A stretch of DNA of 64,000 nt, from NCBI RefSeq assembly GCF_024494595.1, contig NZ_JANHDI010000011.1:124001-188000 (forward strand), written 5' to 3'. Positions 2,078 through 54,508 of this stretch are shown one piece after another. Under the pieces are notes generated by a model, which made no database searches, was not told the DNA's origin, and was given only the letters and a program-made list of their open reading frames with translations. Source of the DNA: Halobellus rarus. GTDB taxonomy: Archaea > Halobacteriota > Halobacteria > Halobacteriales > Haloferacaceae. The position numbers and the translations under genes are program-made. Numbering within the stretch: the first letter of the stretch is position 1; the number at the start of each line of letters is the position of its first letter.

Positions 2078-2365
2078 TGTACTGCGGTTTGGTCACGGAA
2101 GGAGTCCTCCTTGCTGCATAGTGATTCGTGAAACCAGATATCTCTCATCACGTATTAGAATTGTCGTTATAGTTATGATTATTGCAGTACAGAGAAGAGG
2201 ACAGCAGTCAGTCCCGAATATTCCACAGACAAAATACTGCAAATATATTGCAGGAATAGAGGCATCCGAATACTGGTATTTCAACGGTTCGAGAAAAACA
2301 TCAAGACCAAACCGTTGCAGAGTAACGCAACAGTTCTATAGGTGAGACAGGGAGAGAATAGCATA

Positions 2366-3013
2366 ATGCGAACATATATCGCTCCTATTGGCTATGATAG
2401 CACGCGCGTGACACGCCCGATACTCAGCCAAGGTATCGAGCGCGACACTCACATCGACCTCTTGATCCCGACCACAACAACAGACGATAGCCGTGGTGCA
2501 CAAGCTATCGACGACGTTCGTCGGATGGTCGAACAGATCGAACCGAACGTCGATGTCGGGACAACGGAAGTACCACACGACGACTTCGAAGCGGCGATCG
2601 AAGCCTGTGGGTCGCTCATCGACGACGCCAATGGTGAGGTCGTTGTCGTCTTCGGCGGTGGCGCCCGTGATATTTTCTTACCACTCACTGTTGCTGCTCT
2701 CTCGCGAACCCATCAAATCCACGCAAGCTACCAATTCAGCGATATCGACGGCGAGGTCCGGGAGCGTTCCCTCCCCAACCTTACTGCAAACGCACCAGCG
2801 CAGACCAGGTCGACACTCGAAGCTATCAGCACACTCGAGGAACCCGTCTCGCTCACCGCGGTTACTGACGCTGTTGATGTCTCAAAAAGCACCATCACCC
2901 GGCACGTGAAAGTTCTCGAGCGACAGGGGTTGGTCACATCAGAAACACACGGAAAAACGAAGGTCGTCGAGTTGACTACAACGGGTCGTCTACTCCTTTC
3001 ACGGACGTCCTGA
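2366..3013 (+). CDS. Csa3-like CARF-wHTH transcriptional regulator
   Basis: A 215-aa protein with an N-terminal Rossmann/CARF-type sensor (about residues 1-130, opening MRTYIAPIGYD, with the glycine-rich strand VVVVFGGGARDIF near 100) and a C-terminal winged helix (about 145-215: SLTAVTDAVDVSKSTITRHV, then a wing and ELTTTGRLLL). This is the architecture of Csa3 regulators, which are known to sense cyclic oligoadenylate and to control CRISPR or defence genes in archaea. ATG 2366 was chosen over an upstream GTG because the Csa3-type N-terminus begins there. No cas gene or CRISPR array is visible, so it is an orphan that may regulate the flanking island. It could instead belong to the related DUF6293 group of haloarchaeal regulators. 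Confidence 0.75.
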   Translation: MRTYIAPIGYDSTRVTRPILSQGIERDTHIDLLIPTTTTDDSRGAQAIDDVRRMVEQIEPNVDVGTTEVPHDDFEAAIEACGSLIDDANGEVVVVFGGGARDIFLPLTVAALSRTHQIHASYQFSDIDGEVRERSLPNLTANAPAQTRSTLEAISTLEEPVSLTAVTDAVDVSKSTITRHVKVLERQGLVTSETHGKTKVVELTTTGRLLLSRTS

Positions 3014-4598: not shown

Positions 4599-7487
4599 TT
4601 AGAATGAGTCACCTATCTCATCGAGAGAGAAATCTGATTCTTCGATTAAGCTACCAGCGGAATTTTGTTCGTATTCGATATCTGTGGGATCCTCGACAAT
4701 GCCGACGAAGACAAGCGACTCACCGAGATAGGTCACTGCATGGTTTGCTTCGTTAACCGTCACGCTCCCACCCCCTTTTTCAGTATAGATGAATGAGGCG
4801 ATATTCTGGTAGCTTTCTGACGCGATAAATTTCCGTCCGTCCTGTGTTCTGGTGAACGGACGGCCTTCAGCATCGACACTGAATTCGAATCCCTCGCTCG
4901 GTCCCGGATACGGGTCGCCTTGTGCTAACTCCTCGGGTTCTGGAATAGTTTGGCTCGTCGGAGGATCGGGGATTTCGTTGTCAGTCGCGGGTCTGAGATG
5001 ACCGGTAATCGCGTCTTCTTCGGTTTCCCAGGTGAGATGGCGCACCTCTGCCTGTGAGAGTTCTTCCCGCCAATCGTATCGCTCAAAGATGCTCGCATCA
5101 ACTGTATCTCGTGCGTAGAGAACGAACAACTCCGCTTGCTTGTTTGGATCTTCGCCGGTCCGAAGGATACGTCCGAGCGTTTGGATGCGTTGTCTGACGC
5201 TTCCCGAGGAGACACGGACGATACCCATATCTGCTGATGGGACGTCAACGCCTTCGATCAGTGCCTTCACACTCAGCATTACGTTTGCAAACCCGTCATC
5301 GCTGAACCACTCGATAGCAAAATCGTTCCAGGCCTTGTTCCGGTGTCCAGAGTGATACATAACGGGACGGTAACTCGCCGTGAAGAACAGTTCTTCCAGT
5401 TTCTCGTCAATACGTTTCAGTGCCGGGTATCGCTCGTAGAGCTGTGCTCGGTCTACGTCTGTCTCGGTGATTTCGCCAGTCCGTGCGTCACGGCCCCGTG
5501 TCTCCTTCGGGGCGACCATTCGCTCCAACTGCTCGATTCGTTCCTGGAAGACAATCGCTTTCTGCTCGTTGGCCACGCTTTCTTCGAGCAACTCCAGCGT
5601 TACGGCTTGCCGAGCGACGGCGTCAGCCACCAATTCTCGCCGCTCCTGTGTGTATTTGAAGTAATCCGAGATCGCTGGCGTCGCCCTGTCAGCATCGTTC
5701 CGTATGACTTGCAGTTTCCGTGAGAAACTCCCGCTGAGTTCGTATAACCGGTTCTGGTACTGTCTCTCGATATCCGTCACGGCGTCAACCACCGCATCGG
5801 TTAACCGCTGGTATGCCATCTGTTCGGCATCGGTGAGTTCAAACCCGACGTAATTAATCCGGAAGTCCGGAATGAGGCCACGACGTTGACCTTCGTCGTA
5901 CGACAGTTCATAATAAATTTCGCCGAGATTAGCCACCAACATCTCGTCTTCGGGACTCCGCTCGTCAGCAGCCGGGTCAGACAACGGGGTCGCAGAAAGA
6001 CCCAAGCTAGCTGTTCTGTGACAGTCGAACACCTTACCGAATGTCTCGCCGGTGTAACGATGACATTCGTCGGCTATGAGCAGATGCTCATTCACATCGG
6101 CCTTCCGAAGCGTCTGTGACAGCGAATCATTTTTCACCGCCGAATTAACGATCGAGACGAGGACCCGACACCCGTCCTCGAACCCGTCGTTGTGCCCATC
6201 GCCAAGCCATCCGATGTCGTCGGTCGGGATACCGAGTGTCTCGACCAGTTCTTCGAGCCACTGATGCAGAAGCACCTTCGTCGGAACGACGACTGTCACC
6301 ACACCGTTTGAGTGGTCGGCGAGCCACTGACGCAGAACTTCCAGAGCCATCACCGTTTTCCCAGCACCGGTCACCACCTGTGCGATACCACGCTCCGAGT
6401 CTGTCTTCTCACCAGTGAACCATTTTGTAGCGGCGTCTTCCTGCCAGTCGTACAGTTCGAACGCTTCGGGAAACGTGTACGCTTGCCGGTCTGGTGCCAT
6501 CGCTTCGAGAGTCGCTCGTGAGAACCCGCTGCCAGCACTTGCCTTCGCTCGCATCGCCGCAGCCTCGGTGTCCGCAGCGGCGATTTGTTCTAACATTGTC
6601 GTTGACAGTCCAGCGAGAGCTCGCGGGGTGAACGAATCGAACTCTGCACAGATGGTGTCACGGAGTTCTCGGCGATGTCGGCGTTGCTCGACGTACGTCT
6701 CTGACCGTTTGAGTTGCGGCTCCGATGTATCCGTCAACACGGACTCGTCGAGGTACTCTCGCCTGGCTGTATCGAGGAGTTGCCGGTGTTGGCTATGCCC
6801 ACCGGACTCACGGTACATATAGTACTTTGCGAGGTCGCGTTTCACTCGATCCGATGGCGGCGATGTGTTCGGCCCTTCCCGCTTGAGCCATTGCTCGAAT
6901 TGCCACAGAATATCCGCATTACGGAAGCGCTCACTGAATCGCTCCGGATTCGTCGTTTCGTACCCACCCTCACGGTTACGCAACGCGCCCATACCCTCCA
7001 ATAGCTGCGGATACCCGCGAATTCCCTCGTCGTTGAACTCGTATCCGTACTTTTCGCCGAGACGCGCCCGGATCGTGCCTCTACGGACTGGCTCGTCCGC
7101 CTGCTTCACGACGTGATGGATATCGTACAATCCCTCAATGCCTTCCGGGAAGGAGCCTTCTAGTGCCCACGATTGCTTGACAGCGTACCAGAGGAATGTC
7201 TCAAAATCCAACTCGTCCGACCGCCAGTCGTGGGCGAACTCGTGAACTGTGACTCCCTCTTGTGTTTGACGCAGGACACCTAGCTGGATGTACGTCGAAA
7301 CGATGCGGCGAAGATACTGCTCAGCGTATTTCTCTCCATCCGGTTTCAGTAACTGTGAGCGAGCGCGACGAACGAATTCGGATTTATCCAGTGGTTCAGT
7401 CGAAGCGATAGCAATGTCGACGAAGCACCGTGCTCTGGCTGCAGTCTCTTCTACGCCGAACAACGGTGGTGGAAAGCGTCGCCCCAT
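4599..7487 (-). CDS. XPB-like superfamily 2 helicase with N-terminal wHTH region and C-terminal beta module
   Basis: A 962-aa DNA helicase/translocase. Residues 1-330 are a helical region with winged-helix-like segments. The helicase core begins at YDWQEDA (about 346). Motif I is VVTGAGKT (371-378), motif II DECH (473-476) and motif III SAT (498-500). The second RecA lobe ends in EGVDVPSADMG and QRIQTLGRILR (motifs V and VI, about 735-775). This set is typical of XPB/type III restriction-like SF2 enzymes. The C-terminus (about 905-933) carries GGGSVTVNEANHAVTYL followed by VFVGIVED, which matches a module duplicated in the 294-aa and 298-aa proteins of this locus. ATG 7487 lies 3 nt after the upstream gene. 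No nuclease motif is visible, so cutting, if any, would come from a partner. Confidence 0.85.
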   Translation of the reverse strand: MGRRFPPPLFGVEETAARARCFVDIAIASTEPLDKSEFVRRARSQLLKPDGEKYAEQYLRRIVSTYIQLGVLRQTQEGVTVHEFAHDWRSDELDFETFLWYAVKQSWALEGSFPEGIEGLYDIHHVVKQADEPVRRGTIRARLGEKYGYEFNDEGIRGYPQLLEGMGALRNREGGYETTNPERFSERFRNADILWQFEQWLKREGPNTSPPSDRVKRDLAKYYMYRESGGHSQHRQLLDTARREYLDESVLTDTSEPQLKRSETYVEQRRHRRELRDTICAEFDSFTPRALAGLSTTMLEQIAAADTEAAAMRAKASAGSGFSRATLEAMAPDRQAYTFPEAFELYDWQEDAATKWFTGEKTDSERGIAQVVTGAGKTVMALEVLRQWLADHSNGVVTVVVPTKVLLHQWLEELVETLGIPTDDIGWLGDGHNDGFEDGCRVLVSIVNSAVKNDSLSQTLRKADVNEHLLIADECHRYTGETFGKVFDCHRTASLGLSATPLSDPAADERSPEDEMLVANLGEIYYELSYDEGQRRGLIPDFRINYVGFELTDAEQMAYQRLTDAVVDAVTDIERQYQNRLYELSGSFSRKLQVIRNDADRATPAISDYFKYTQERRELVADAVARQAVTLELLEESVANEQKAIVFQERIEQLERMVAPKETRGRDARTGEITETDVDRAQLYERYPALKRIDEKLEELFFTASYRPVMYHSGHRNKAWNDFAIEWFSDDGFANVMLSVKALIEGVDVPSADMGIVRVSSGSVRQRIQTLGRILRTGEDPNKQAELFVLYARDTVDASIFERYDWREELSQAEVRHLTWETEEDAITGHLRPATDNEIPDPPTSQTIPEPEELAQGDPYPGPSEGFEFSVDAEGRPFTRTQDGRKFIASESYQNIASFIYTEKGGGSVTVNEANHAVTYLGESLVFVGIVEDPTDIEYEQNSAGSLIEESDFSLDEIGDSF

Positions 7488-7490
7488 AAA

Positions 7491-8375
7491 TCACCAGTCG
7501 ATCGGATCATCCTCCGGGATCTCATCATCAAGATCATTTGCCGGGAGCGATTCGGTGTCTGGGCCATCCACAGTATGGTTGTCGACCTCTGTCTGTGATG
7601 TTTCACCGAGCGAATCAAGCCAACTATCGACTCCGTCACTCTGATCCTCAAATGGATCGGTCAGCGACGGTGGGTCACTAATGGAGAACGGGGTGGCTTC
7701 GACTTGGCCGGCGTAAATTGGGAGTTTCTGGACACCTCCGCGGTCACGTCGAAGGGCAATGAGGTTCTTCACCACTCGTGGAAGTGAATCGAATTCCGCC
7801 CGAGTTTGCGACGGGAGTTTATCTAAGTCAACAAGTGTTAGAACATCGTTCCACGGTGTGACCCGCAAGGAGCCTCCCTGCGGCTTATACCGCGATAATA
7901 TCGTCACTAACTCCTGTGAGAAAAATTCTTGGACTGGATGTCGCTTGTGGGTCTGTGGGTTGTCCCACCAGATCCGCTCAACGCCGGGTCCGAACGAGTA
8001 TTTCGCACCGTCATACACGCTTGGCCAGAAGTCACCAGGTTCCAAGCCATCGGGCTGTACTGGCACACTGAAATCTGGATCCTCTGGCGGGACCAACTCT
8101 CCGTTGAGGTCAAATCTCCCGATCCAGTGGGTCTTGTATTCGTCATCTTCTTCAGCCCGCGTAAGTACATCGTTGCCTTCTGTTATCCGAATACGGCCAC
8201 CGAGGCGTTTGAGTTCGAGTAGTGACTCGATGAGATCCCCAGGAGTAGGCTCTAAGTACAGTCGATCGGTTCCTTGGTAGGCTTGCCACCAGATATCGCC
8301 GTCAGGGTTCGTCCGAAGTCGATAGCCACGGTAATGCTCAGTCCATCTATCGCCGGGTTCGTATCTCGATATCAT
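7491..8375 (-). CDS. Duplicated beta-module protein, partner of the SF2 helicase
   Basis: A 294-aa protein of unknown family with two copies of one module. Copy 1 (about 5-95) has PGDRWTEHYRGYRL, then GGRIRITEGNDVLT and WIGRFD. Copy 2 (about 107-228) has PGDFWPSVYDGAKYSF, GGSLRVTPWNDVLT and LPIYAGQVE. The last 55 residues are acidic and low-complexity. The same module pair makes up the 298-aa protein at the far end of the opposite arm. It is transcribed first in the leftward operon, immediately ahead of the helicase. A TATA sequence 27 nt upstream predicts a leaderless start at 8375. I infer a shared scaffold or nucleic-acid-binding role. Confidence 0.75.
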   Translation of the reverse strand: MISRYEPGDRWTEHYRGYRLRTNPDGDIWWQAYQGTDRLYLEPTPGDLIESLLELKRLGGRIRITEGNDVLTRAEEDDEYKTHWIGRFDLNGELVPPEDPDFSVPVQPDGLEPGDFWPSVYDGAKYSFGPGVERIWWDNPQTHKRHPVQEFFSQELVTILSRYKPQGGSLRVTPWNDVLTLVDLDKLPSQTRAEFDSLPRVVKNLIALRRDRGGVQKLPIYAGQVEATPFSISDPPSLTDPFEDQSDGVDSWLDSLGETSQTEVDNHTVDGPDTESLPANDLDDEIPEDDPIDW

Positions 8376-8401
8376 CGGTAACTGGTGACGGTCAGAAGGA
8401 C

Positions 8402-8414
8402 CGTTTTATAATGT
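8402..8414. promoter_or_regulatory. Shared bidirectional TATA box of the divergent two-helicase locus
   Basis: GTTTTATAATGTA reads as a TATA box on both strands. It lies about 27 nt from the leftward ATG (8375) and about 22-30 nt from an ATG at 8434 on the right, the distances expected for leaderless haloarchaeal transcripts. One core element may therefore drive both arms. Confidence 0.5.
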
Positions 8415-8433
8415 ACTCACAGGGCCGAGATAT

Positions 8434-8472
8434 ATGTCTGACGACAAAATCGAGGGGCGAAAATATACTTGA
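8434..8472 (+). CDS. Twelve-codon upstream ORF or N-terminus lost by frameshift
   Basis: The ATG at the predicted leaderless transcript start opens a 12-residue frame (MSDDKIEGRKYT) whose TGA overlaps the TTG at 8469, the first possible start of the SNF2 frame. It may be a leader peptide that gates SNF2 translation, or the true N-terminus of the SNF2 protein separated by a one-base change. The acidic opening is typical of haloarchaeal protein starts. Both readings are inference. Confidence 0.3.
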   Translation: MSDDKIEGRKYT

Positions 8473-10340
8473 ACACAGGTCTTCGTGCGACGTGGTGTGA
8501 TTATCATACTCTGAAAGCGCAGCGTGACGTTTATCATTTAGGTGCCAGATGGTACGTGCAGATGCCACAAAAGGTGTCGAAATCCGGAACTTCTCCGGAG
8601 CTATCGTATTCTATCGATGACCCTTCGACTGCAGCAGAGGCACTTTCTACCGACACTATCAATGTGACAAGTCATCTCCTCAACGTTCAAGCGCGGGAGT
8701 TTGAAATCGCCCAAGGGCAACAAGAGTTACTCTCCGTCGAGGAGATTAAAGATCGGATCAAACTGCTGGACCACCAACTTCAGGCTGCTCACCGTGCGCT
8801 GTTCAAAATGAGCGGTGGGGCGCTGTTCGCTGACGAAGTTGGACTCGGAAAAACTATCGAGGTTGGAATGGTTCTGAAGGAGATGGATTTCCGAGACACC
8901 CGAGACAGCTTCCTCATCCTGACCCCGGCTCAGCTCGCACCTCAATGGCAGAAAGAACTGGACGAAAAGTTCGGACTGGACTTCGTCTGTAATTACGACG
9001 AGGACTTCTGTGGGTTCGATGCGCACGATAAGATCATAGCGAGTGTCGACACTGCCAAGTCGAAAACCAACAGAGACGATGTCCTCTCACGGCGATGGGA
9101 TGTTGCTGTTCTCGACGAAGCACACTATGTGCGCAACGCGGACACAATGCGGTACGAACTTATGGACGAACTGAGCTATGGGGAGGCGTTCTTTGCAACC
9201 GCGACACCGATTCAAAACGATATTTCAGATCTCTACAACATTATTGATCTCATCCGCCCCGGGATACTCGGAACCAGACAACAGTTCGACAACCGGTACG
9301 TCGTCGATAGTGACGATGCCCAAATCAAACGCAGCGAGGAACTACAAGAGAAACTCAATCGTGTGATGATTCGGAACCGTCGTGAAGAGACAAAAATCGA
9401 TTTCACGAATCGGAACGTCCACACGAACGTTTTTGAGCCTTCAGCGGCGGAAACCCAGTTGTACGACGCTGTCACGGACTATGTTCGGTCGAATTATTCC
9501 AGCGCTGATGCTCGGCACCTAGTGCTGTTCACCTTGCAGAAAGAAGTCGTTTCAAGCCCGTACGCGGTCGATAAGACGATTGAACGGTGGGTGGCTGACA
9601 AAGAAAAGGCCCTCTCAAAACGCGAACGGAACGCGCTGAGAGACATTCAGTCGATAGTCGATGATATCGCTCGGACGACCAAGCAGAAGCGGCTTCGACA
9701 TATCATCGAAACGATTCAGGATCAAATCGGAACGACCAGAGCCGTCGTGTTCACGCAGTTCCGTCCGACTCAAGATGCGATCGCTGACAGTATTCGCGGG
9801 TTAAACCTGCCGGTCCATATTGTGAACGGGGATCTCTCCAGCAAGGGGAAAGAACGGAAAGTGGCGCAGTTCAAAGACGAAGGGGGCATTATGGTTGCCA
9901 CGGACTCGATCAGTGAAGGCCGGAATATGCAGTTCTGTAACGTCTTAGTGAACTATGACTTGCCGTGGAATCCGATGAAAGTCGAACAGCGCATCGGGCG
10001 AGTCGATCGTATCGGGCAAGACCGTGAGGTCCACGTGTTCAATATGGCCTTGGAGGGCACGATCGAGGAACACGTCCTGAACAAACTGTTCGGGAAAATC
10101 GATCTGTTCAACCAGTCCATCGGTGGGCTCCGAGATATCCTCTCCCGGATGGAAAAGTCCGGTTCCGACTTCGAACGAGAGGTATTCGAACAGTTACGGC
10201 ACGCCGACTCTAAAGTCGAACTCGAAAACAACTTCGAGGATATGGCAGTCGATCTTGAACAGAACACTAAAGCTGCGGAGAAAATGAATGATTTCAACCG
10301 CGGTGTGTTCGACGGCTTCGATTTCGGTGAGAGTGTATGA
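8469..10340 (+). CDS. SNF2/RapA-type ATPase
   Basis: A SNF2-family DNA translocase of 623 aa from TTG 8469, or 592 aa from ATG 8562. Motif I is ADEVGLGKT (121-129), the Ia region is LILTPAQLAPQW, motif II LDEAH (215-219), motif III ATATPIQN. The second lobe has VVFTQFRPTQDAIA, ATDSISEGRNMQ and QRIGRVDRIGQ (motifs IV-VI). It resembles the helicase of RapA/HepA-like and DISARM DrmD-like proteins but is short, ending soon after lobe 2. The C-terminal domain such proteins usually carry seems to be the N-terminus of the next gene. The stop overlaps the next start (ATGA). The exact start is uncertain because the transcript start appears to lie at 8434. Confidence 0.88.
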   Translation: MNTGLRATWCDYHTLKAQRDVYHLGARWYVQMPQKVSKSGTSPELSYSIDDPSTAAEALSTDTINVTSHLLNVQAREFEIAQGQQELLSVEEIKDRIKLLDHQLQAAHRALFKMSGGALFADEVGLGKTIEVGMVLKEMDFRDTRDSFLILTPAQLAPQWQKELDEKFGLDFVCNYDEDFCGFDAHDKIIASVDTAKSKTNRDDVLSRRWDVAVLDEAHYVRNADTMRYELMDELSYGEAFFATATPIQNDISDLYNIIDLIRPGILGTRQQFDNRYVVDSDDAQIKRSEELQEKLNRVMIRNRREETKIDFTNRNVHTNVFEPSAAETQLYDAVTDYVRSNYSSADARHLVLFTLQKEVVSSPYAVDKTIERWVADKEKALSKRERNALRDIQSIVDDIARTTKQKRLRHIIETIQDQIGTTRAVVFTQFRPTQDAIADSIRGLNLPVHIVNGDLSSKGKERKVAQFKDEGGIMVATDSISEGRNMQFCNVLVNYDLPWNPMKVEQRIGRVDRIGQDREVHVFNMALEGTIEEHVLNKLFGKIDLFNQSIGGLRDILSRMEKSGSDFEREVFEQLRHADSKVELENNFEDMAVDLEQNTKAAEKMNDFNRGVFDGFDFGESV

Positions 10341-13300
10341 GCGTTGATGACATCAGTACACTCAACCGCTTAGAAATCCGCCGGTTCACTGCGATAACAA
10401 TCGAAGCATACGGAGGCGACGTTGACCGACGCAACGCGGATTCTTGGCAAGTTACACTTCCAGATCCACTCAGTAATCTCGCGGAATCGCCTGACGTTGC
10501 CGTGGTGTTTGACCCGAAAGACCAGCAACCTGGTCGTGATGAAATTCTCGTCCAACCCGGCTCCCTCGCGTTCAATCAATTACTCGAATTAGTAAAACAG
10601 GAGCTCTCAGTCGGTCAACTATACCTTACAGCGGCTGATATGCAGATCACTTTTCCCGACGTTCTCGATGTTTCCGAAACGACGGTGACGATTGACGAAT
10701 TTACTCCAGAGCAGACGGCTGACGCTGTCGCGTTTCATTTTCTGGTCGAGATGGAGAGTGTCTCGTCCTTCCACCGGGAGCGATTCGAAACCGTCACACT
10801 AGACCTAACAAACGGGAGTCCGCAACCCGACCTCACCGAGCGGTTACTAGCCCATACCAGCACGCTCAGCCGGTCTCACGAGACAAGCGATATCAATCCG
10901 GCGGGCGACACAATTGAACAGCGATACACGACAGCTGTCGAGGAGATTGAACGGCGAATCGAAGACGATGCGGCTGAGTTACTTGACGAAGCCACCGAAG
11001 CCGCATCGACTCGGGCGGAAGAAATCAGTGATTTGTACGACCAGCGACGGGAAGAACTCACAGACGAACTGCACGGTTCCGCGTTACGCCAACGACAGAA
11101 ATCGTTCGATAAACGTGAGCGAAACGAGATAGAGGATATGGTCAACCGGCACGATGTTAACGTAAACGTCTCGCTCGTCGGGATAACCTTACTCTCACAC
11201 GACGTTGGGAGCCTCACACTCTCGATTGACGACGGCGAACGTTCTGGTACTGCGGTGGCTCGATACGCACCCGCAACCGGGGACATCATTCGCTTCGACT
11301 GCGCGACCTGTGACACGCCGTTCGATCGACAAACCAGGCCGCAAGTTTGTGGGTGCGGGACTACCGTCTGTGCCGGTTGTATCAACGTCTGTGAGGCGTG
11401 TGGCGACACAGGCTGTCCAAATTGCGACACACCAGTGGCGGCCTGCGAGTTGTGCGGGCGCGTCGAATGTCACCAGTGTGGCTCAGTCTGCGACGAGTGT
11501 GGTAGAGCAGTGTGCACCAACCACATTGAAATATGTGCTGCAACCGACCACTCAACCTGTTTGGCCTGCGGTGAAGACTGTAGTAGCTGCGGGACGTTCC
11601 ACGCTGACTCGCAACTCCACCGGTGCCGTGTTGACGGCGACCTGCACTGTGACGCTCATTCTGGCACCTGTGATGAGTGCGCAGACACGCTTTGTGACGA
11701 TCATCTCCGGTCTTGTACTGCGTGTAAGATAGAGATCTGCCCTGCCGACCGAGTGACTTGTGAGACGTGCGGTGATACCCGCTGTCACGACGACGCCATC
11801 GCTTGTGACGGGTGCGGTGGGTATCACTGTGCTGAATCAGTTGAACGATGTGAGATCTGCACGAACCAATTCGGGACCGCTCATCTCTCTATGTGCGCCA
11901 CCTGTGACCGGAGTGTGTGTGCAACAGACTCCACGACCTGTGGTACCTGCGAAGATACGATTTGTACGGAGCACGCTATTGACTGCGCTGGTTGCAGTGA
12001 CGCGCTGTGCGCCACGCACAGCAACGAGTGTGAGATTTGCGCAGACTCTTTCGGGGCGCGACACCTAGTAGCGTGTGACACGTGCGGTCAAGAAATCTGT
12101 GAGACTGACCGCGGAGAGTGTCGGATCTGCGATGACATCGTCTGTACTGAGGACTCCGCGACCTGCACGGAGTGTAACGATGTCACCTGCCCGAGCCACA
12201 CTGATCCCTGTGATCTGTGTGCCGAAGTGTTCTGTGCTGACCATCTCGACACTTGTGCTACCTGCGGTGACGATATCTGTGAAACTGACCGGATAGAGTG
12301 CGCTGTCTGTGACAGTGTCACCTGTGATGTTCACGCAGAGACGTGTGACACGTGTGAAAAGGACTTATGTCCGGAGCACAGCGACACGTGCGCCACGTGT
12401 GGGGACCTCCTCTGTCCGGCTGACCAATCTCGGTGTACAGACCACGACGCTGTACTCTGCGACACGCACGCCAAGACGTGTGCCCAATGCGAGGAAACGT
12501 ACTGTGTTGACCTCGTTACTGACTGCGGGTACTGTGATGGCGTTGTTTGTCATCACCACGAAGAGACGTGTACCCATTCCAGTGAGACAGTGTGCGCCGA
12601 GCACAACCGGGCCTGCACCGTCTGTGAAGATGCGTTTTGCCCGGCGCACTCCGTCACCGCTGACGATAGCGACGAAGTCCGTTGTCTGGACCACGCAGCT
12701 GAATGTGCTGACTGCGAAAATCCGTTTACTCCCGAGCATCTGGAAGTATGTGATCGATGCGGCGAACACGTCTGTCAGGACGACCGAGCCGGCTGTGCTA
12801 CTTGCGGTGCGGTACTCTGCCAGACGGATCAAATTACGTGTACTGTCGACGGGAAACCACACTGTGCGTCCCACATCGTTCCCTGTGACACGTGCGGTGA
12901 GGGCGTCTGCGACGACCACGTGAAAACCTGTGCACACTGCGGCGATCTGTTATGCGACGATGACGCGACGATATGTACCACGTGTGACGAACCACATTGC
13001 GCGGCCCACACTGAGGAGTGTCTCAGTTGCGATGAACCGCATTGCGTCACTCATTCAGCCACCTGTGCGGAATGCGAGTTCACGTTCTGCATGGATCATG
13101 TAGAGGAGTGTCACAACTGCGGTGACCTCGTCTGCCACACTGACCGAGAAACCTGCGAATCCTGCGGCGAAACAGCGTGTCTCTCACACAGCGCAGACTG
13201 TATCCACTGTAAGGAGAGTTTCTGTGCCGATCACCACTTCCGTTGTGGCACCTGTAATAGCCCAATCTGTGCCGCAGATAGCACCGAATGCGTCGATGAC

Positions 13301-13777
13301 GAGGACCGGCACTGCGACGAGCACATCGCCACGTGCAGTGTCTGCCAACACGAGACCGACCGTGACCAGCCACGCTGTCAGAATCATCTGGAGCAGTGCG
13401 TCATTGACGAGGCGAACCTGTGTTCCGAACATACTCACATTGACCCGGTGCTACAGGAGGCGGTGTGTGCAGAGCACCAAACGACGTGTACCACGTGTCG
13501 ACAGCAGGTCGCCACTGCCGCTGTGGAAAATGGGGAGTGTCGCACCTGTCACGAGTTAGCTGAAAACGACTCACTACAGCCGGATGTCGAGGATGAACTC
13601 CCGGAGTCACTAAGTTTCCGCTCGATGGAGATCAGCACCAATCCGGCGTACGTCGTCGTCCACGGTAAACGGCTCGTTCGGTCGAACGAGACTATCGTGC
13701 TCGAACGCGACACCGGTGACATTATCGAACAGTATCGAACCGGGTTGCTTGCCCGGCTCTCCGGAGGGCGACTATGA
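10337..13777 (+). CDS. Giant cysteine-array (zinc-binding) protein fused to a SNF2-associated domain
   Basis: A 1146-aa protein. Residues 1-185 resemble the strand-rich tail domain that follows the ATPase in many archaeal SNF2 proteins (DVAVVFDPKDQ, then a PG..F.QLLEL segment), so the SNF2 protein may be split over two genes. Residues 190-275 are a charged coiled coil. Residues 322-1071 are an unbroken array with about 43 CxxC motifs in units of roughly 18-20 residues, of the form C-x2-C, a C-x2-D/H pair, then the next C. The tail (1072-1146) is a small globular domain. The array should bind many metal ions, probably zinc, as a long rigid recognition or docking arm. It is coupled by ATGA overlaps to both neighbours. 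I know no named family with this layout. Confidence 0.8.
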   Translation: MSVDDISTLNRLEIRRFTAITIEAYGGDVDRRNADSWQVTLPDPLSNLAESPDVAVVFDPKDQQPGRDEILVQPGSLAFNQLLELVKQELSVGQLYLTAADMQITFPDVLDVSETTVTIDEFTPEQTADAVAFHFLVEMESVSSFHRERFETVTLDLTNGSPQPDLTERLLAHTSTLSRSHETSDINPAGDTIEQRYTTAVEEIERRIEDDAAELLDEATEAASTRAEEISDLYDQRREELTDELHGSALRQRQKSFDKRERNEIEDMVNRHDVNVNVSLVGITLLSHDVGSLTLSIDDGERSGTAVARYAPATGDIIRFDCATCDTPFDRQTRPQVCGCGTTVCAGCINVCEACGDTGCPNCDTPVAACELCGRVECHQCGSVCDECGRAVCTNHIEICAATDHSTCLACGEDCSSCGTFHADSQLHRCRVDGDLHCDAHSGTCDECADTLCDDHLRSCTACKIEICPADRVTCETCGDTRCHDDAIACDGCGGYHCAESVERCEICTNQFGTAHLSMCATCDRSVCATDSTTCGTCEDTICTEHAIDCAGCSDALCATHSNECEICADSFGARHLVACDTCGQEICETDRGECRICDDIVCTEDSATCTECNDVTCPSHTDPCDLCAEVFCADHLDTCATCGDDICETDRIECAVCDSVTCDVHAETCDTCEKDLCPEHSDTCATCGDLLCPADQSRCTDHDAVLCDTHAKTCAQCEETYCVDLVTDCGYCDGVVCHHHEETCTHSSETVCAEHNRACTVCEDAFCPAHSVTADDSDEVRCLDHAAECADCENPFTPEHLEVCDRCGEHVCQDDRAGCATCGAVLCQTDQITCTVDGKPHCASHIVPCDTCGEGVCDDHVKTCAHCGDLLCDDDATICTTCDEPHCAAHTEECLSCDEPHCVTHSATCAECEFTFCMDHVEECHNCGDLVCHTDRETCESCGETACLSHSADCIHCKESFCADHHFRCGTCNSPICAADSTECVDDEDRHCDEHIATCSVCQHETDRDQPRCQNHLEQCVIDEANLCSEHTHIDPVLQEAVCAEHQTTCTTCRQQVATAAVENGECRTCHELAENDSLQPDVEDELPESLSFRSMEISTNPAYVVVHGKRLVRSNETIVLERDTGDIIEQYRTGLLARLSGGRL

Positions 13778-15051
13778 GCAACAGCGACCAATCTTTCTCG
13801 TGGTATAATCCGGAGAGCGTCCGTACGACAGTCGCCAATGGCAAAGCGAAGAGTATCGATCCGAGTCGGATAGCGGAGTATCTGGCACAACGCCAGTTTG
13901 CTGACATCCCGGTGTCCCGCGTCGAACGCATCGTCGATAACATACCGAGTTCTGAGGACACGTCAGCAGCGACAATTGATCTCTCACAACCCGAAGCAAC
14001 GGACGCAGAACCGCGTGCACCCGTAGCGAACCAACTCGCCGTTCACGATCTGGAGTACGTCTCGAACCGCGAGGCTGCTCGACTCATCGGGCTTGCACTC
14101 GAACAATTCGACGGGAACACGGTACGCCCGCCCGGTGCCACACGGGTAGAAACCGACCTTGTCTGGCATCGACAGCAAATGACCGTCGCGTTTCGTATCG
14201 TCCCAATCCCGTCAGGTGCTGTTGATACCAACCACATCGACGCCTTACTGGACGGTACGGTCGTGCCGGATGACGTCAGAAGCCCGTCCGAACTGGCAAT
14301 CGTCACTAATCAAGCGTTCACCGATGAGGCTCTCGATTCCGCCGTTGAACACGACATCCACTGTTTCGATGCCGGGCACGTCGAAGAATGGTTCCGCCGA
14401 GCCAGAATCCCAATGGGCGCCGTCGGTACACTGCTCGAAGACGGTGAATCTCACGATGGACCGCTGACCGACCTCGTCGAACTCCCACCAATTCCGGACC
14501 CGAGGAAGACCGTCGATCCCCTTGAAATCAATCGAGCGTTCGATATCGACTCGCTCACACCGCCTTCCGGAGATGACACCTCGCCCTCTACAGTTGAACG
14601 AACAGACGCGAACCAAGGCAAACAGGACACCGGACTTGGCCGTTCGACTGCCCGAGACGATCCGCTCGGCGGCACTCAACCCCCAGCCGGTGAAACCGGG
14701 ACGCTGTACGCAGACCCTGGTGAAGATGGCGATTTCGAGGCATTCGACCGGTTTGTCGATGAGATCACGGACGGAAACCAGCAATCCAACTCGACTACGG
14801 ATGAAACTGCGAACGCGGGAGCCAAAGAAGCCAACGAGTCAGATGACAAATCAACCACCTATGATGATGTCGACCGGAAAGAACTGTTGTTCGACCTCTT
14901 AGAAGCAACACAAGACGTCGACGGGAGAATGTCTCTGAAAGAGGTGCGAACGCATACCTCGTATCCAGTTGAGTATTATCTGAAAGAGTTCGGCTCGATT
15001 GCGGATGCGTTGGTCGCAGTAAATGTTGAATATTCGGAGGAGTCTCAATGA
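13774..15051 (+). CDS. Mrr-like restriction-endonuclease fold protein with altered active site
   Basis: A 425-aa protein. Residues 85-210 follow the Mrr_cat pattern: a helix (NREAARLIGLALEQF), a strand pair VETDLVWHRQQMTVAFRIV (126-143) and the characteristic LAIVTNQAFTDEALDSA followed by IHCFDAGHVEEWF. Active Mrr enzymes have D...(Q/E)xK; here D128 is kept but the second motif reads AFR (139-141), so catalysis may be lost or altered. Residues 215-370 are an acidic disordered linker. Residues 385-418 (MSLKEVRTHTSYPVEYYLKE, then FGSIADAL) resemble the homing-endonuclease-associated HNR repeat, a DNA-binding element. Overlaps of 4 nt on both sides place it third in the rightward operon. Confidence 0.65.
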   Translation: MSNSDQSFSWYNPESVRTTVANGKAKSIDPSRIAEYLAQRQFADIPVSRVERIVDNIPSSEDTSAATIDLSQPEATDAEPRAPVANQLAVHDLEYVSNREAARLIGLALEQFDGNTVRPPGATRVETDLVWHRQQMTVAFRIVPIPSGAVDTNHIDALLDGTVVPDDVRSPSELAIVTNQAFTDEALDSAVEHDIHCFDAGHVEEWFRRARIPMGAVGTLLEDGESHDGPLTDLVELPPIPDPRKTVDPLEINRAFDIDSLTPPSGDDTSPSTVERTDANQGKQDTGLGRSTARDDPLGGTQPPAGETGTLYADPGEDGDFEAFDRFVDEITDGNQQSNSTTDETANAGAKEANESDDKSTTYDDVDRKELLFDLLEATQDVDGRMSLKEVRTHTSYPVEYYLKEFGSIADALVAVNVEYSEESQ

Positions 15052-15944
15052 CGGCAACACTGAAAGAAGAGTCGACGAGCGTCCCGTTGGAAGATCAGAG
15101 ATCAGTCACGTTGAAACCAGGGAAACCATGGCCGTCCGCGTACCGCGGCTCAAAATACAGTCTCGTCTCTGACGACGACTTTAATGATGCCGTACTCAAA
15201 TGGGAGCAACGCGATCTTGCGATTTACACAGATCCACCGGATGGGTTACGCCGCACGCTCATTCTCCTCGGGAAAAACGGTGGGTACGGGAGTTTCCGAG
15301 TCACTGCTGACAACGAAGTCCTCACGAAAATCAAAGCCGACGAGTACAAACACGTAAATGAAGCCCCAGTCGATAAGGGGTGGATCCCTGTGTACGTCGG
15401 GAAACTCTCAGGCACCCTCGACTTCGATGAAATCGACTCAGACCCACTCACACCTCAGAAGAACCGCATCAAGGTCTGGAAAGGATTCCCATTCCACCAC
15501 GGGGAACGCTGGAGCGTCAGCCAAGACGGGGCCCTATTCTGGAAATGGAAAGACTACCGCTTCGACTCAGCGTTCGACCATCCAGAACTCATCAACGAAT
15601 ATCAAAAATACCGCGGAACAGCCGGTCGCCTCTACATCACAGAAAACGCGCATATTTGGGTAAACATCCCGAAAAACGATATCGCACCAGCGAAACAATC
15701 CGCTGTCCGGAACGCAATCAAAAAGTGGAAACGAGCAGCCGAGCAGGTAGACGATACAGCAACCCTCCGACTAGTCAACCGGCGACTGGTCGCCACGAGC
15801 GGAGACGACGATCCGTCCACCGGCCACTTCCCGATCCACCTTGGACAGCTAAGCGACTTCGACAACGGGGTCATCCCTCGACCAATCGTCGACGAATCAA
15901 GCTACTTCCAAGCCGTTTGCGAATACGAACACGTATGGGAATAA
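15048..15944 (+). CDS. Duplicated beta-module protein, last gene of SNF2 operon
   Basis: A 298-aa protein made of two copies of the module seen in the 294-aa protein of the opposite arm. Copy 1 (about 22-127) has PGKPWPSAYRGSKYSL, YGSFRVTADNEVLT and PVYVGKLSG. Copy 2 (about 150-275) has HGERWSVSQDG, AGRLYITENAHIW and FPIHLGQLSD; its NEVLT-type signature is more diverged. ATGA overlap couples it to the Mrr-like gene. Paralogues at both ends of the locus suggest that each helicase arm has its own copy of a common structural subunit. Confidence 0.75.
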   Translation: MTATLKEESTSVPLEDQRSVTLKPGKPWPSAYRGSKYSLVSDDDFNDAVLKWEQRDLAIYTDPPDGLRRTLILLGKNGGYGSFRVTADNEVLTKIKADEYKHVNEAPVDKGWIPVYVGKLSGTLDFDEIDSDPLTPQKNRIKVWKGFPFHHGERWSVSQDGALFWKWKDYRFDSAFDHPELINEYQKYRGTAGRLYITENAHIWVNIPKNDIAPAKQSAVRNAIKKWKRAAEQVDDTATLRLVNRRLVATSGDDDPSTGHFPIHLGQLSDFDNGVIPRPIVDESSYFQAVCEYEHVWE

Positions 15945-16144: not shown

Positions 16145-16687
16145 TCACTTACTGTATACGTCGCCGACCGTGGCGAAGTGATCGACAAGCGTGTCGACGG
16201 CGTCTTCGATGTCAGCTCGTGAGCTGACGTGGTTGTAAAAGACTTTATTCGAGTCGTACGGATTGTTGGAGATCTCCACGGCCCAATCGCCGGCTCGGGT
16301 CTGTTCGACGACACGCGTATCCTTGTCGGTGGCAGCGTTCTTGATTTTGTATCCGAACGCGCGTAACGCGCCGTCGATGTCCGTTCGGTCGTATTCCGTT
16401 GGCGGCATCCAGTACAGGTGGACGTTCAGTTTTTGATTCCCGCTGGGCGAGGCAGGCCCCGTCATTTGATGATTGATCCGGTGGAACGCTAACCCGTTTC
16501 TGGGGCTCTCGCTTGTTTTCACATCGGGGTTCAGTCCCGGTTCGAAGAGGTCGGGCTGGGCATCCACCATTCGTTGATCGAACTGTCGAAGGATCGATTC
16601 GATCTCGGCTTGGAACTGGTCGGTCAACCGGAGTGCTTTCAAGTATCGATCGTTCGTGAGGCCGTTGGTGAGGAAATCGTCTGTCAT
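16145..16687 (-). CDS. Hypothetical protein paired with PD-(D/E)XK nuclease
   Basis: A 180-aa acidic soluble protein of unknown family. It has an amphipathic N-terminal half (FLTNGLTNDRYLKALRLTDQ) and a strand-rich centre (KLNVHLYWMPP, WAVEISNNPY) ending in a helix. ATG 16687 overlaps the stop of the upstream nuclease-like gene by 4 nt, so the two are co-translated and likely form a functional pair, such as an effector with a specificity or immunity partner (inference). Confidence 0.65.
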   Translation of the reverse strand: MTDDFLTNGLTNDRYLKALRLTDQFQAEIESILRQFDQRMVDAQPDLFEPGLNPDVKTSESPRNGLAFHRINHQMTGPASPSGNQKLNVHLYWMPPTEYDRTDIDGALRAFGYKIKNAATDKDTRVVEQTRAGDWAVEISNNPYDSNKVFYNHVSSRADIEDAVDTLVDHFATVGDVYSK

Positions 16688-17781
16688 CGGGTGTTTTGTT
16701 GCTGCAGGTAAGTTAGTTGTCGGTCGATTGTATCGGTGAGCTGGTGTGGGCGAAGTGCCTCGACGACGTTCGCCGGCGAGGCAAACCGTTTCGCGTCGGG
16801 GTGGGACACGAAATTCAGGAGTTGTTGCTCCGCCACGGCGCAGAACAGGTACGCGTTCGCTGCCCAGTGGTCATCCACGATCTCCCCGGCACGCAGGAGC
16901 GTGCGGAGTGCAGTCGTGATATCTCGCCAGTAGCGGACTTCGACTGGGCCTGGATCGGTCCACGGAATACGGAGCTGGCCGTCCGGAGTCTGTTCGACTC
17001 CGGGACTGACAATCGCGTCAAGACGGTTGCGTTTCCGTTCTGGGAGGAGCAATACGTGCGTCCACTCCCGGTCGTCGTAGTGGTGTTCGACGAGTGCGGC
17101 TGTTTCGGCAGTCTTGCCGTAGTTCTCGTCGTCGAGTTTTACTTCGATCGAGATGCCGCGGTCGCCGTAACAAATTAACAGGTCCGCACGGCGTGGTCTC
17201 CCACCAGGGTTCGAGAGGCGTGCCTCCCGAATCACCTCGTCCGGCGGCCCCTCAACTGGAATGTCGAAGAGAGTAGCGATGAGAGCTCCGGCTGGCCGCA
17301 GGAGTTGGGCAAGCCACCGAGACCACGCGACCTCGTTGCTCGGGTGATACGGGCCGCGTGGAGTAGCTCCGTCGCTCACGTCGGTTGCGAGGGGGTCGGT
17401 ATCAAACGGGGCGTTGGAAGCTGACCAGACCGTGTTTGACCGCGCAAGCACTGCTGCAAGCCGAACCGCCGCATCAGTGCCGGTCTGTGCGTACAACTCC
17501 CACCAGTCATCAAGGTCCGCCCACGGGTCTGGTGACTGTTCCTCGGGAAAGACTTGAGACCAGGAGGTGTCGGCTGTCGGTCCGGAGTATCGAGCGGAGG
17601 ATTGCCACCACGAATCTACCTCGCTCCACCAATTGCCAACCCGGTCGCGTTCCACGACCCTGGCACCGTCGGACTGCGATGTGAGGCGGTGTGGCTGCGC
17701 AAGCGTGGCCCACCACGAATCAAGCCCCGCCCAGTCGGCAGGCCGTGCGTCTCTATCCACAAGAGAAGTTACTGTGGCCAT
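16684..17781 (-). CDS. PD-(D/E)XK nuclease-fold protein with W-rich N-terminal repeats
   Basis: A 365-aa protein from ATG 17781 (the frame continues to a TTG six nucleotides upstream). The C-terminal half carries a clean PD-(D/E)XK site: D200 in RRADLLICYG and E213-x-K215 in ISIEVKLDDENYGKT, a restriction-endonuclease-like DNA cleavage fold. The N-terminus has three W-rich repeats (17-29 WAGLDSWWATLAQ, 51-64 WWSEVDSWWQSSAR, 87-99 WADLDDWWELYAQ) spaced about 35 residues apart. These may be peptide-like docking motifs or a short helical repeat. It is coupled to the 180-aa gene and is plausibly a defence nuclease or part of the neighbouring helicase system. Confidence 0.75.
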   Translation of the reverse strand: MATVTSLVDRDARPADWAGLDSWWATLAQPHRLTSQSDGARVVERDRVGNWWSEVDSWWQSSARYSGPTADTSWSQVFPEEQSPDPWADLDDWWELYAQTGTDAAVRLAAVLARSNTVWSASNAPFDTDPLATDVSDGATPRGPYHPSNEVAWSRWLAQLLRPAGALIATLFDIPVEGPPDEVIREARLSNPGGRPRRADLLICYGDRGISIEVKLDDENYGKTAETAALVEHHYDDREWTHVLLLPERKRNRLDAIVSPGVEQTPDGQLRIPWTDPGPVEVRYWRDITTALRTLLRAGEIVDDHWAANAYLFCAVAEQQLLNFVSHPDAKRFASPANVVEALRPHQLTDTIDRQLTYLQQQNTR

Positions 17782-18148
17782 CGACAAAGGTGCTGTGCGA
17801 GAAGTGGCGGTCTGAGATGAAAGCCGACCACAATAGTTACGAACTTTGTGGCAGTGCCTCGCTGACTTCGCTTCACTCTTGACCTAAGGGGAGAATGTCA
17901 TAGAGTGGTTCCTATGCATTCCAATCGTCACGGACTGAATCGTTCAGTCCAGAGGAACGAATTAACACGGCGTGGGTCGAACTATCCAGTGGCTGTCAAG
18001 AACAGCGTGCAAGATACAGAGACTGAATCTCTCAGAAACCTCGTCAGAATAGTCGGTCGAAGTTCACAGAAAACCAGTGACTGGATTCAAAATAGCCTAA
18101 TATGCTAGGAAATTTGGTTCGAAATTCTATCCTCAGCTACCGTGAGAT
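17782..18148. other. Gene-free stretch between nuclease and OB-repeat genes
   Basis: About 370 bp with no supportable gene. It holds the upstream region of the nuclease pair and the 3' end of the 437-aa gene. Confidence 0.4.
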
Positions 18149-21435: not shown

Positions 21436-22776
<1,341 letters not shown>

Positions 22777-22796
22777 CTGAAACTCCCACGGATGAA

Positions 22797-22826
22797 ACCC
22801 CGTCGTCCACAACGGGGAGGATGTCA
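22797..22826 (+). other. Right-end hairpin of the IS element / candidate omega RNA 3' scaffold
   Basis: CCCCGT and ACGGGG flank a short loop, followed by AGGATGTCA at the element end. In tnpB-only elements the RNA covering this end acts as the guide scaffold, with the sequence just outside used as guide. Here that sequence would be the orc1/cdc6 remnant. The RNA itself is inferred. Confidence 0.4.
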
Positions 22827-22830
22827 TATC

Positions 22831-23126
22831 AATTGCTGGCGCAACTACGCCCGATTCTGGACGTTCTATCAGATCCTTTAGGAGCTCAGTGCGACGACCG
22901 ACATTCACGGGCAATCACCGCCGCACGACGACCCGAGAACAGTCGTCATTCTCAACGATATCGACCAACTGGGGGATCCCAGCGTCATCTATGAGGGTCA
23001 CAGCCTCCCACAGTTCGCGATCATCTGCATTGTGAACCGGGAAGAGGAACTGTTTGATGGTCGGAACGCAGCAGTATCAGTTCCTATCTGCTCCGAACAC
23101 ATCGATAGAGATGTGTCTCGGCGTTA
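22831..23126 (+). pseudogene. orc1/cdc6 remnant (internal fragment)
   Basis: The frame reads [16 protein letters not shown], then a stop, then [18 protein letters not shown] and HSLPQFAIICIVNREEEL. It matches the ATPase core of the intact orc1/cdc6 about 0.7 kb downstream (NCWRNYTRFRTLYQIL, PRTVVILDEVDQLEDPSV, HSLPQFAIICIANKEEEL). It has an in-frame TAG, an internal deletion of about ten residues and a mutated Walker B (NDID for DEVD). Only the middle of the gene survives. It ends at TAA 23124-23126, which is also the first arm of a 41-bp inverted repeat. Confidence 0.85.
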
Positions 23127-23164
23127 ACCAACAATGGATAATGTCACTCCCATATGTTGGTTAA
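23124..23164. repeat. 41-bp inverted repeat, site A (upstream of orc1/cdc6)
   Basis: TTAACCAACA at 23124-23133 and TGTTGGTTAA at 23155-23164 form a perfect 10-bp inverted repeat with a 21-bp spacer. This is the first of eight such sites in the window. The left arm supplies the stop codon of the orc1/cdc6 remnant. The intact orc1/cdc6 starts 175 bp downstream. Confidence 0.85.
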
Positions 23165-23339
23165 GGACGCCACGGTAGTGCTGGAACTTCCGGAAAGCTG
23201 CCTCTCCCCATCTCCACAAATTCAGGGAATTTGGTTCCTAACGAGCAGTATTTTCGTGAAGCCACGATTCTATGAGAGGTACTTTCCGGAAACAACCCGG
23301 ATACGTTTTTGTGGGTTGCACAGAAACTCTCTCGCATCT
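23165..23339. other. Upstream region of orc1/cdc6, possible origin element
   Basis: Two copies of TTCCGGAAA (23188-23196 and 23284-23292, the second within TTTCCGGAAAC) resemble the core of archaeal origin recognition boxes. There is no strong AT-rich unwinding stretch, so an origin here is only a possibility. Confidence 0.3.
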
Positions 23340-24368
23340 ATGATCCGCGATGCTCGCGTCCTCCGTGCCGGGTTTGTGCCACGGGAAATTGAGCATCGCG
23401 ACGCCGAAGTCAACCACCTCTCTAGTGTCCTCGAACCGATCACAAACGGCAAACCAGCCGACACGGCCGTCGTGACTGGCCCCAGCGGGGCCGGCAAAAC
23501 CTGCATCTCAAAATTCGTCACTGAACGCCTTCGTGAGGAAGTGCTGGCTGTTGAGAGTACTTACGTGAATTGCTGGCGTAACTACACCCGATTTCGGACG
23601 CTCTACCAGATCCTCGACGATCTCGGCGCCACCATCGACATCCACCGGCAGTCGACGCCGCATGACGAACTCGTCGACCGTCTACAGCAGCACGACGGCC
23701 CGCGAACGGTCGTCATCCTCGACGAGGTCGACCAATTGGAGGACCCCAGCGTCATCTACGACCTCCACAGCCTCCCGCAGTTCGCGATCATCTGCATCGC
23801 GAACAAGGAAGAGGAGCTGTTCAGCCGCGTCGACGACCGCCTCGTGAGCCGCCTGCGCTCCAGCGAGCACGTCCGGATGGACAAGTACCACGACGAGCAG
23901 TTGTACGACATACTGAGTGCGCGGGCGAAGTGGGGACTCGACGAGGACGTCATCACCGACGACCAACTCTATCGCATCGCCGATGCGGCCGCCGGCGACG
24001 CCCGCCTCGCAATCGGCATCCTCCGAACAGCGGCCAGCAAGGCCGACCGCGAGAACCACGAGCGGATCACCGACGACATTCTTCTGGATGCCGCCGAAGA
24101 TGCTCGGGCCCAGATTAAGCAGAAGAGCCTCGACTCGCTCACGCCGCACCAGCGCGTCGTCTACGACATCGTGCGCGAGCACGGCCCGGTCGGGCCAAGT
24201 GAGATCCACGAGCACTACACTAAGGAGGTCGATGACCCCCGGACGAAACGGACCGTCCGGACGTACCTCTCCAAGATGAAGCAGTACAATCTCCTCAAGG
24301 CGGAGGGCACGAGTCGGGATCGAGAGTACTCACTCGTCGATTCGGCCGCTGCGTCGCCGATGCAGTGA
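23340..24368 (+). CDS. orc1/cdc6: Orc1/Cdc6 replication initiator
   Basis: A 342-aa origin-binding AAA+ ATPase. Walker A is GPSGAGKT (47-54), Walker B VVILDEVDQL (around 125-133), sensor 1 AIICIANKEEEL, then an arginine-rich DRLVSRLRSSEHV segment. Residues from about 265 form the C-terminal winged helix (SLDSLTPHQRVVYDIVREH, ending with MKQYNLLKAEGTSRDREYSL). I chose ATG 23340; the open frame runs upstream to 23154 through sequence unlike the family. It binds origin boxes, recruits MCM and starts replication. It lies 175 bp after a 41-bp inverted repeat and beside a dead relative. Confidence 0.88.
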   Translation: MIRDARVLRAGFVPREIEHRDAEVNHLSSVLEPITNGKPADTAVVTGPSGAGKTCISKFVTERLREEVLAVESTYVNCWRNYTRFRTLYQILDDLGATIDIHRQSTPHDELVDRLQQHDGPRTVVILDEVDQLEDPSVIYDLHSLPQFAIICIANKEEELFSRVDDRLVSRLRSSEHVRMDKYHDEQLYDILSARAKWGLDEDVITDDQLYRIADAAAGDARLAIGILRTAASKADRENHERITDDILLDAAEDARAQIKQKSLDSLTPHQRVVYDIVREHGPVGPSEIHEHYTKEVDDPRTKRTVRTYLSKMKQYNLLKAEGTSRDREYSLVDSAAASPMQ

Positions 24369-24433
24369 CCGTAGCGCCGTCGAGTAGGCATATCCCGCAT
24401 CGATCCGGCCTGGACGGAAGTTCTATGTATCGG

Positions 24434-24449
24434 TATCTCTATAGAGATA
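24434..24449. promoter_or_regulatory. Perfect 16-bp palindrome upstream of HTH/nucleotidyltransferase operon
   Basis: TATCTCTATAGAGATA is a perfect palindrome 44 bp upstream of ATG 24493. It overlaps the only TATA-like sequence, as expected for an autoregulatory operator of a toxin-antitoxin pair. Confidence 0.5.
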
Positions 24450-24492
24450 ACTAATGGCGAGATCGTCAAGTCGGACAGAAGGCTATTCAATA

Positions 24493-25170: not shown

Positions 25171-25183
25171 CAGAGGCAATAGA

Positions 25184-25870: not shown

Positions 25871-25874
25871 GATA

Positions 25875-25914
25875 TTAACCAACAGACGACACGGAGCACC
25901 AGTTTGTTGGTTAA
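25875..25914. repeat. 40-bp inverted repeat, site B
   Basis: TTAACCAACA (25875-25884) and TGTTGGTTAA (25905-25914), spacer 20 bp. It lies directly after the nucleotidyltransferase stop and 168 bp before the RecA-like gene. Confidence 0.85.
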
Positions 25915-26081
25915 GTAATCAGCGCCGGCTGAACCCGGTCTCTGGAAACGTTCTCGGAAACAGTCGGAACAGCCGCAGAAAGTCGATGACAGAGGATGGG
26001 GACAGTATCTGTCTCGTGTCTTCCCTGAAACGCGGAAGCTACACGCCGCGGCTTATCGGGAGTGTGGACCTCTAGTCGAGT

Positions 26082-27026: not shown

Positions 27027-27028
27027 CG

Positions 27029-27334: not shown

Positions 27335-27336
27335 CG

Positions 27337-53552: not shown

Positions 53553-53580
53553 ATCCGTGTGTTCAACCGAGTAGACCAAA

Positions 53581-53604
53581 GTAGTTTACTCCAGAGTAAA
53601 CTAC
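53581..53604. promoter_or_regulatory. Perfect palindromic operator of the PadR-like gene
   Basis: GTAGTTTACTC and its exact reverse complement are separated by CA. The site overlaps the expected promoter of the regulator gene and lies between it and the SWIM gene, so it is a likely autoregulatory operator. Confidence 0.6.
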
Positions 53605-53637
53605 CGAGCAGAAGCGACTGAGGAGCAAGACAGGAGC

Positions 53638-54506: not shown

Positions 54507-54508
54507 AC

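Follow-up and report, generated by a model that had tools for sequence, protein, structure and literature searches.

A 49-unit cysteine array with a 15-residue period in a haloarchaeal protein encoded beside an SNF2-family ATPase

Gene content of the locus

The window—the whole 64,000-nucleotide stretch of Halobellus rarus DNA that was analyzed—carries a gene for a protein with an extended cysteine array, and this gene belongs to a set of six. The genes for a helicase and a 294-aa protein run divergently from those for an SNF2 ATPase, the array protein, an Mrr-like protein and a 298-aa protein. This six-gene order recurs in about 12 other genomes, which are haloarchaeal. ATGA junctions are present between the SNF2 and array genes and at the next two. 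The genes, and the parts of the array protein, are:

4599..7487, minus strand: SF2 helicase related to PbeA, without the HKD nuclease motif
7491..8375, minus strand: 294-aa protein, distantly paralogous to the 298-aa protein (E 2e-5)
8469..10340, plus strand: SNF2-family ATPase of the RapA/DrmD/HmaA type; its stop overlaps the start of the array gene as ATGA
10337..13777, plus strand: Cys-array protein, 1146 aa, with an N-terminal RapA-C-like region, the array and a C-terminal beta domain
10337..11299, plus strand: residues 1-321, an alpha/beta region with a helical hairpin and beta strands, the equivalent of the post-motor region of RapA/BrxHII-type SNF2 proteins
11300..11578, plus strand: residues 322-414, a RING-like entry module (C-x2-C-x12-C-x-C/GH-x-x-VC-x2-C) that is the counterpart of the terminal zinc finger in short relatives
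11579..13333, plus strand: residues 415-999, 39 consecutive 15-residue units (CxxC-x4-Cxx[HDC]-x3) in unbroken register
13334..13549, plus strand: residues 1000-1071, the array end, terminal zinc-finger-like (CxxC...CxxC)
13550..13774, plus strand: residues 1072-1146, a C-terminal beta domain that is conserved among array forms
13774..15051, plus strand: Mrr_cat-like protein, which, like its counterparts in all six-gene relatives, has lost the catalytic QxK positions
15048..15944, plus strand: conserved 298-aa protein

The SNF2 open reading frame begins with TTG at 8469, and its homologues align from residue 32-42; judged from these alignments, the true start probably lies some 30-40 codons inside, at an ATG near 8562. 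The 298-aa protein is encoded in 15 of the 15 genomes with a long array. It also occurs in about 12 genomes beyond these; thus, the helicase/294/298 set probably exists apart from the array operon. In a Haloquadratum MAG (L078, 12924-15047), a second 294/298/helicase set directly follows a complete SNF2-to-298 block.

A three-gene version of the locus encodes an SNF2 protein, a 675-aa array protein (13-15 units) and an Mrr protein of 216-220 aa. The Mrr active site has the form D...QxK/ExK: D...QAK is kept in the three-gene Mrr proteins, and the QxK is gone in 13 of 13 six-gene rows. The HxKxxxxD motif was found neither in the window helicase nor in ten of its relatives. The six-gene set has no recognizable active nuclease left, which suggests that the system may interfere with its target without cutting DNA.

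The window holds further genes outside the operon. A two-gene pair lies at 16145-17787 on the minus strand; one member, a 367-aa protein (16684-17787), contains a PD-(D/E)xK-like stretch (RADLLI...ISIEVKLD) and has no Pfam match. Of 382 genomes, 26 encode relatives of it, which mostly lie away from the operon and, in one locus (L079), near it. We weighed this protein as a candidate for the missing nuclease and rejected it, as it is found elsewhere without the operon. A Csa3-type CRISPR-linked regulator (Csa3_N, E 1.3e-12) is encoded at 2342-3013 on the plus strand; no cas genes were recognized among the nearby genes scanned. The segment at 21591-29502, with an IS605 OrfB/TnpB-type transposase, an Orc1/Cdc6-like initiator and a family B DNA polymerase, is a plasmid or integrated-element setting. 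Finally, positions 53146-57800 share about 89-91% identity with segments of haloarchaeal plasmids and include ArdC-like and AbiEi/AbiEii genes.

Period and metal-site pairing of the array

The initial annotation described a cysteine array of about 750 residues with about 43 CxxC motifs. Such an array does exist: residues 322-1071 (nucleotides 11300-13549) hold 136 cysteines and 44 C-x2-C motifs, as compared to 24.4±4.1 in shuffles of the same composition. The proposed period of 18-20 residues, however, was incorrect. Another cysteine stands exactly 15 residues further on for 109 of the 136, and the autocorrelation has its maxima at 15, 30 and 45 (109, 110 and 103 pairs); the period is therefore 15 residues. 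A dynamic-programming parse likewise followed this period, yielding 49 units whose register is unbroken over residues 415-999. The unit is C-x2-C-x4-C-x2-[HDC]-x3; its fourth ligand is H in 61%, D in 21% and C in 10%, and by position it reads C1-x2-C4-G/D-x-x-hydrophobic8-C9-x2-[H/D/C]12-x3. Pfam, NCBIfam and PADLOC have no family for the array. Nor does it appear in the literature searched, the coverage of which excluded most subscription papers. A search for tandem repeats in the DNA returned only trivial 9-10 base pairs of copies, indicating that the repeats are old.

Among relatives, the number of units ranges from about 13 to 53; at least a dozen further genomes encode long versions, with 39-53 units. 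Of the 31 internal indels of at least 10 residues that separate the window protein from eleven relatives, 28 are exact multiples of 15. Across relatives of 32-81% identity, most cysteine ligands do not vary, and the other positions evolve fast. In the closest full relative (L036 of genome G290, 6973-15160), both the SNF2 and the array gene are broken by gaps of about 1.5 kb, which are probably insertion elements. The copies in G314 and G319 are also truncated.

The ligands of the presumptive metal sites were paired by covariation. In 21 array proteins we divided each unit into a half-unit a, with C1 and C4, and a half-unit b, with C9 and H12, and compared the joint ligand losses of the half-units with 2000 permutations. 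Half-unit a of one unit and half-unit b of the next lost at least one ligand each in 40 cases, against 12.7±3.0 expected (maximum 24 in the 2000 permutations); both ligands were lost in each half in 15 cases, against 1.2±1.1. The same signal was evident among eight divergent representatives (17 vs. 4.7; for both ligands, 8 vs. 0.4). The clear excess was confined to this spacing of a(n) with b(n+1): in the same test of 21 proteins, neither the within-unit (lag 1) nor the RING-style (lag 2) pairing of half-units had a comparable excess. Each metal site thus joins two consecutive units, and the predicted site is C-x2-C-x19-C-x2-[H/D], spanning neighbors.

Under this pairing rule, the window protein has 36 predicted four-ligand sites and six with three ligands, in keeping with the earlier suggestion of a solenoid-like array with dozens of metal sites. 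We infer the metal from the type of ligand: it is probably zinc. Apparently, then, about 40 zinc ions staple 49 near-identical turns into one long rod.

Fold of the array and origin of the protein

AlphaFold2, run without zinc on 24 and 15 sequences, gave a mean pLDDT of 82.7 and a pTM of 0.37 for the whole protein, and a pLDDT of 91.3 and a pTM of 0.62 for residues 316-609 alone. In the model, the array repeats a strand-knuckle-strand-turn every 15 residues. Its nearest solved folds in the VIA comparison are FYVE and FYVE-like fingers, which superpose on three units over 45-53 residues at 2.1-3.0 Å with Z of 5-6, a range in which common arrangements also turn up and which is weak taken alone. 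FYVE heads the VIA list, and the absence of other folds from that list carries no weight. A Foldseek search of the PDB with the array alone returned nothing under E 0.001.

The FYVE match can nonetheless be read in terms of ligands. It covers residues 428-472, exactly three units, with knuckles at 430, 445, 453 and 468 and the ligand pairs in P1-P4 order. In FYVE domains, knuckles 1 and 3 share one zinc and knuckles 2 and 4 the other. Applied to the array, this rule pairs 430 with 453 and 445 with 468, the same pairing obtained from covariation; the cross-braced arrangement of FYVE is hence found in the array both by ligand loss and by superposition. From the agreement of these two independent lines, we conclude that the modeled array is best described as a series of overlapping cross-braces, in which each metal would fill site two of one module and site one of the module after it. 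The pairing is the FYVE/RING cross-brace, continuing from unit to unit without end. We regard this structure of the array as well supported.

The array therefore shares with the binuclear treble-clef fingers of the FYVE/RIM type and of RING two CxxC-type knuckles around a beta hairpin (C-x2-C-G-x-x-hydrophobic-C-x2-C/H), cross-braced. It differs from them in that every site is common to two overlapping modules and in that the brace continues for 49 units, whereas the known cross-braced zinc fingers are closed, with two zincs per module. The whole protein did not match the Pfam FYVE model up to E 1, and the phosphoinositide-binding motif of FYVE, R(R/K)HHCR, is absent from the 1146-residue sequence. 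Some likeness to RING is seen at the start of the array. In relatives, the spacing there (CxxGHVVCxxC) fits roughly the RING consensus, C-x2-C-x(9-39)-C-x(1-3)-H-x(2-3)-C-x2-C-x(4-48)-C-x2-C. Residues 322-394 weakly matched the RINGs of Hakai, MAT1 and TRIM32 in phmmer (E 0.012-0.062), and VIA gave RING/FYVE matches to residues 1-53 of the array model; Pfam RING had no match in the array protein. Of the idea that the repeats might belong to a FYVE/RING family, then, the local topology stands, as any three units resemble FYVE; membership does not, for want of a match to either family model and because the sites belong to overlapping modules.

The N-terminal part of the protein points to its origin. 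Residues 1-291 resemble the part of E. coli RapA beyond the motor in Foldseek (8spg, E 7.3e-5, probability 1.00) and in VIA (Z 9.6, 247 residues, rmsd 6.2 Å); the post-motor C-terminal fold of RapA is present there as a distant likeness only. The C-terminal part of the PADLOC BrxHII profile matches residues 13-240 (E 0.0034). Short haloarchaeal relatives of about 390-430 aa lack the array and carry one terminal zinc finger; the HMM of this short family places its second domain at residues 251-349, and hhalign aligns the family with the C-terminal part of SNF2 proteins that in bacteria form a single chain (E 1.2e-4, probability 55%). The bacterial chains are about 920-970 aa long, as against haloarchaeal pairs of about 585 and 390 aa. 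Given that the bacterial relatives are single chains and that the SNF2 gene adjoins the array gene through ATGA, the computed origin of the protein is that of a split gene: it is most likely the C-terminal half of a RapA/BrxHII-type SNF2 ATPase, now detached. An SNF2 fusion in one locus (L132) was only apparent, caused by a run of N. Comparison of the two forms suggests that the array grew from the terminal zinc finger of the short form and that it arose once; in the SNF2 tree, short and array forms separate by a single change, with supports of 79-90 on the separating branches.

The unit itself is not confined to haloarchaea. In other families of the same phylum (taken as methanogens; L160-L164), proteins of about 540-560 aa combine zinc ribbons with an Mrr_cat domain, whose D...ECK looks intact, and with a short Cys array of 15-residue period; they possibly offer a simpler model for the array's role. 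Proteins on two viral contigs end in short arrays of 15-residue period (L168, 12542-13930, 462 aa; L212, 5392-6630, 412 aa), and models of giant-virus proteins match the array by fold (Foldseek E down to 1.9e-10). These methanogen and phage arrays differ from the haloarchaeal ones in having about 5-10 units (by eye) and other partner domains. Many further viral pattern matches were discarded as low-complexity Cys runs. The whole array protein had no relatives in an alignment scan of viral contigs, nor in phages, and an initial scan of genome contigs with it as query gave no match. What is confined to haloarchaea is the length of the array and its SNF2 setting.

Proposed function and comparison with known systems

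On balance, we lean towards the following reading: the split-off SNF2 half, with its zinc-stapled rod of overlapping cross-braces, is the docking or recognition arm of a six-gene system against foreign DNA. The array protein would work with the SNF2 motor encoded just upstream. The CxxC of one unit and the Cxx[H/D] of the next would hold one ion, probably zinc, stapling the units into a presumably stiff rod, and this rod may keep a partner protein, or nucleoprotein of the invader, away from the motor. Arrest of the invader, without cutting, could then fall to the motor together with the second helicase and the Mrr-like subunit, which lacks its catalytic residues. We infer the defense role from the families of the neighboring genes, the patchy distribution, the plasmid location and the broken copies; broken copies and plasmid settings are typical of defense loci.

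Two alternatives turn on the charge of the array. The initial annotation had proposed that the array reads DNA or modified bases; acting in the manner of TAL or zinc-finger repeats, it would give the SNF2 motor sequence specificity. The repeats do adjoin a DNA motor, and methanogens have Mrr nucleases with short arrays fused to them. However, the array is strongly acidic, with 20% D+E and 4% K+R (the latter below that of neighboring proteins), which favors a protein partner over direct reading of DNA, and the non-ligand positions of orthologous units are just 15-29% identical. We thus consider direct reading unlikely. The same acidity, in a long and regular rod attached to the partner of a motor, would suit a mimic of DNA that occupies the SNF2 motor or a DNA-binding protein of the invader, whether as auto-inhibition or as counter-mimicry. 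Yet haloarchaeal proteins are acidic in general, and the short methanogen array is near neutral in charge; mimicry, too, is improbable in our estimation.

The remaining alternatives concern the cysteines and their number. With 136 cysteines and dozens of predicted sites, the array might be a metallothionein-like metal store, or the redox or metal sensor that had earlier been suggested, switching the activity of the operon. The strict register, the His/Asp fourth ligand, the paired loss of site halves and the confident folded model instead indicate structural sites, conserved as such inside an SNF2/nuclease-type operon in which no metal-related gene was recognized, and we regard this explanation as very unlikely. 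The RING-like first module could make the protein a ligase scaffold that recruits the ubiquitin-like (SAMP) conjugation machinery, as the matches of residues 322-394 and the RING rows of the VIA list would allow; with E values of only 0.01-0.06 and no E2- or Ubl-like gene recognized in the operon, we consider this very unlikely. Finally, the varying unit number could reflect neutral expansion of a repeat that has no specific function. Against this stand the near-invariant cysteines and a dN/dS of about 0.11 in the array, near the 0.09 of residues 1-321 (window vs. its 81% relative), and we give neutral expansion the least credence of all.

A further step may be entertained tentatively, as a possibility short of an expectation: the array would represent a new class of repeat protein, an open-ended cross-braced zinc solenoid with each zinc in two treble-clef modules, serving as the long target-recognition arm of a nuclease-less, SNF2-driven archaeal defense. 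Should the cross-brace be able to extend over dozens of units, the result would be a zinc-stapled rod, extendable in 15-residue steps, that would be useful for understanding and designing repeat proteins. With its two motors and its inactive nuclease, the haloarchaeal cluster is a candidate for a form of immunity that leaves DNA uncut.

Among validated defense systems, none matches the six-gene set, and the likenesses of the set to known systems are partial. The helicase is related to PbeA of PbeABCD/CxC-DndE (E 3.8e-44). PbeA is a fusion of HKD and SF2 domains for which the HKD motif is defining (PMC10853773); the helicase of the operon is without this motif, and no PbeB, C, D or Dnd genes were seen in the operon. 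For the SNF2 protein, the closest motor families are BREX BrxHII, DISARM DrmD and HmaA (PADLOC E down to 4e-76), but the operon is without the other genes of BREX, DISARM and Hma. The SNF2 protein falls below the NCBIfam cutoff for DrmD (253.7 of 950 bits), with no drm neighbors among the flanking genes scanned, and the methylase and AAA+ ATPase genes of Hma/DUF1156-DUF499 are absent from the operon; both kinds of gene lie beside some short-form relatives (L063, L070, L072), where the methylase-type genes belong to a different system. E. coli RapA, the SNF2 recycler of RNA polymerase, is akin to this pair both in its post-motor part, which residues 1-291 resemble, and in the RapA-like SNF2 neighbor, which scores below the cutoff of the NCBIfam RapA equivalog (152.8 of 576 bits). 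RapA, however, is one chain rather than two genes and has no Cys array. The likeness to SNF2 helicases of the BrxHII type lies in their C-terminal half, which can be aligned to the N-terminus of the array protein and to the short family.
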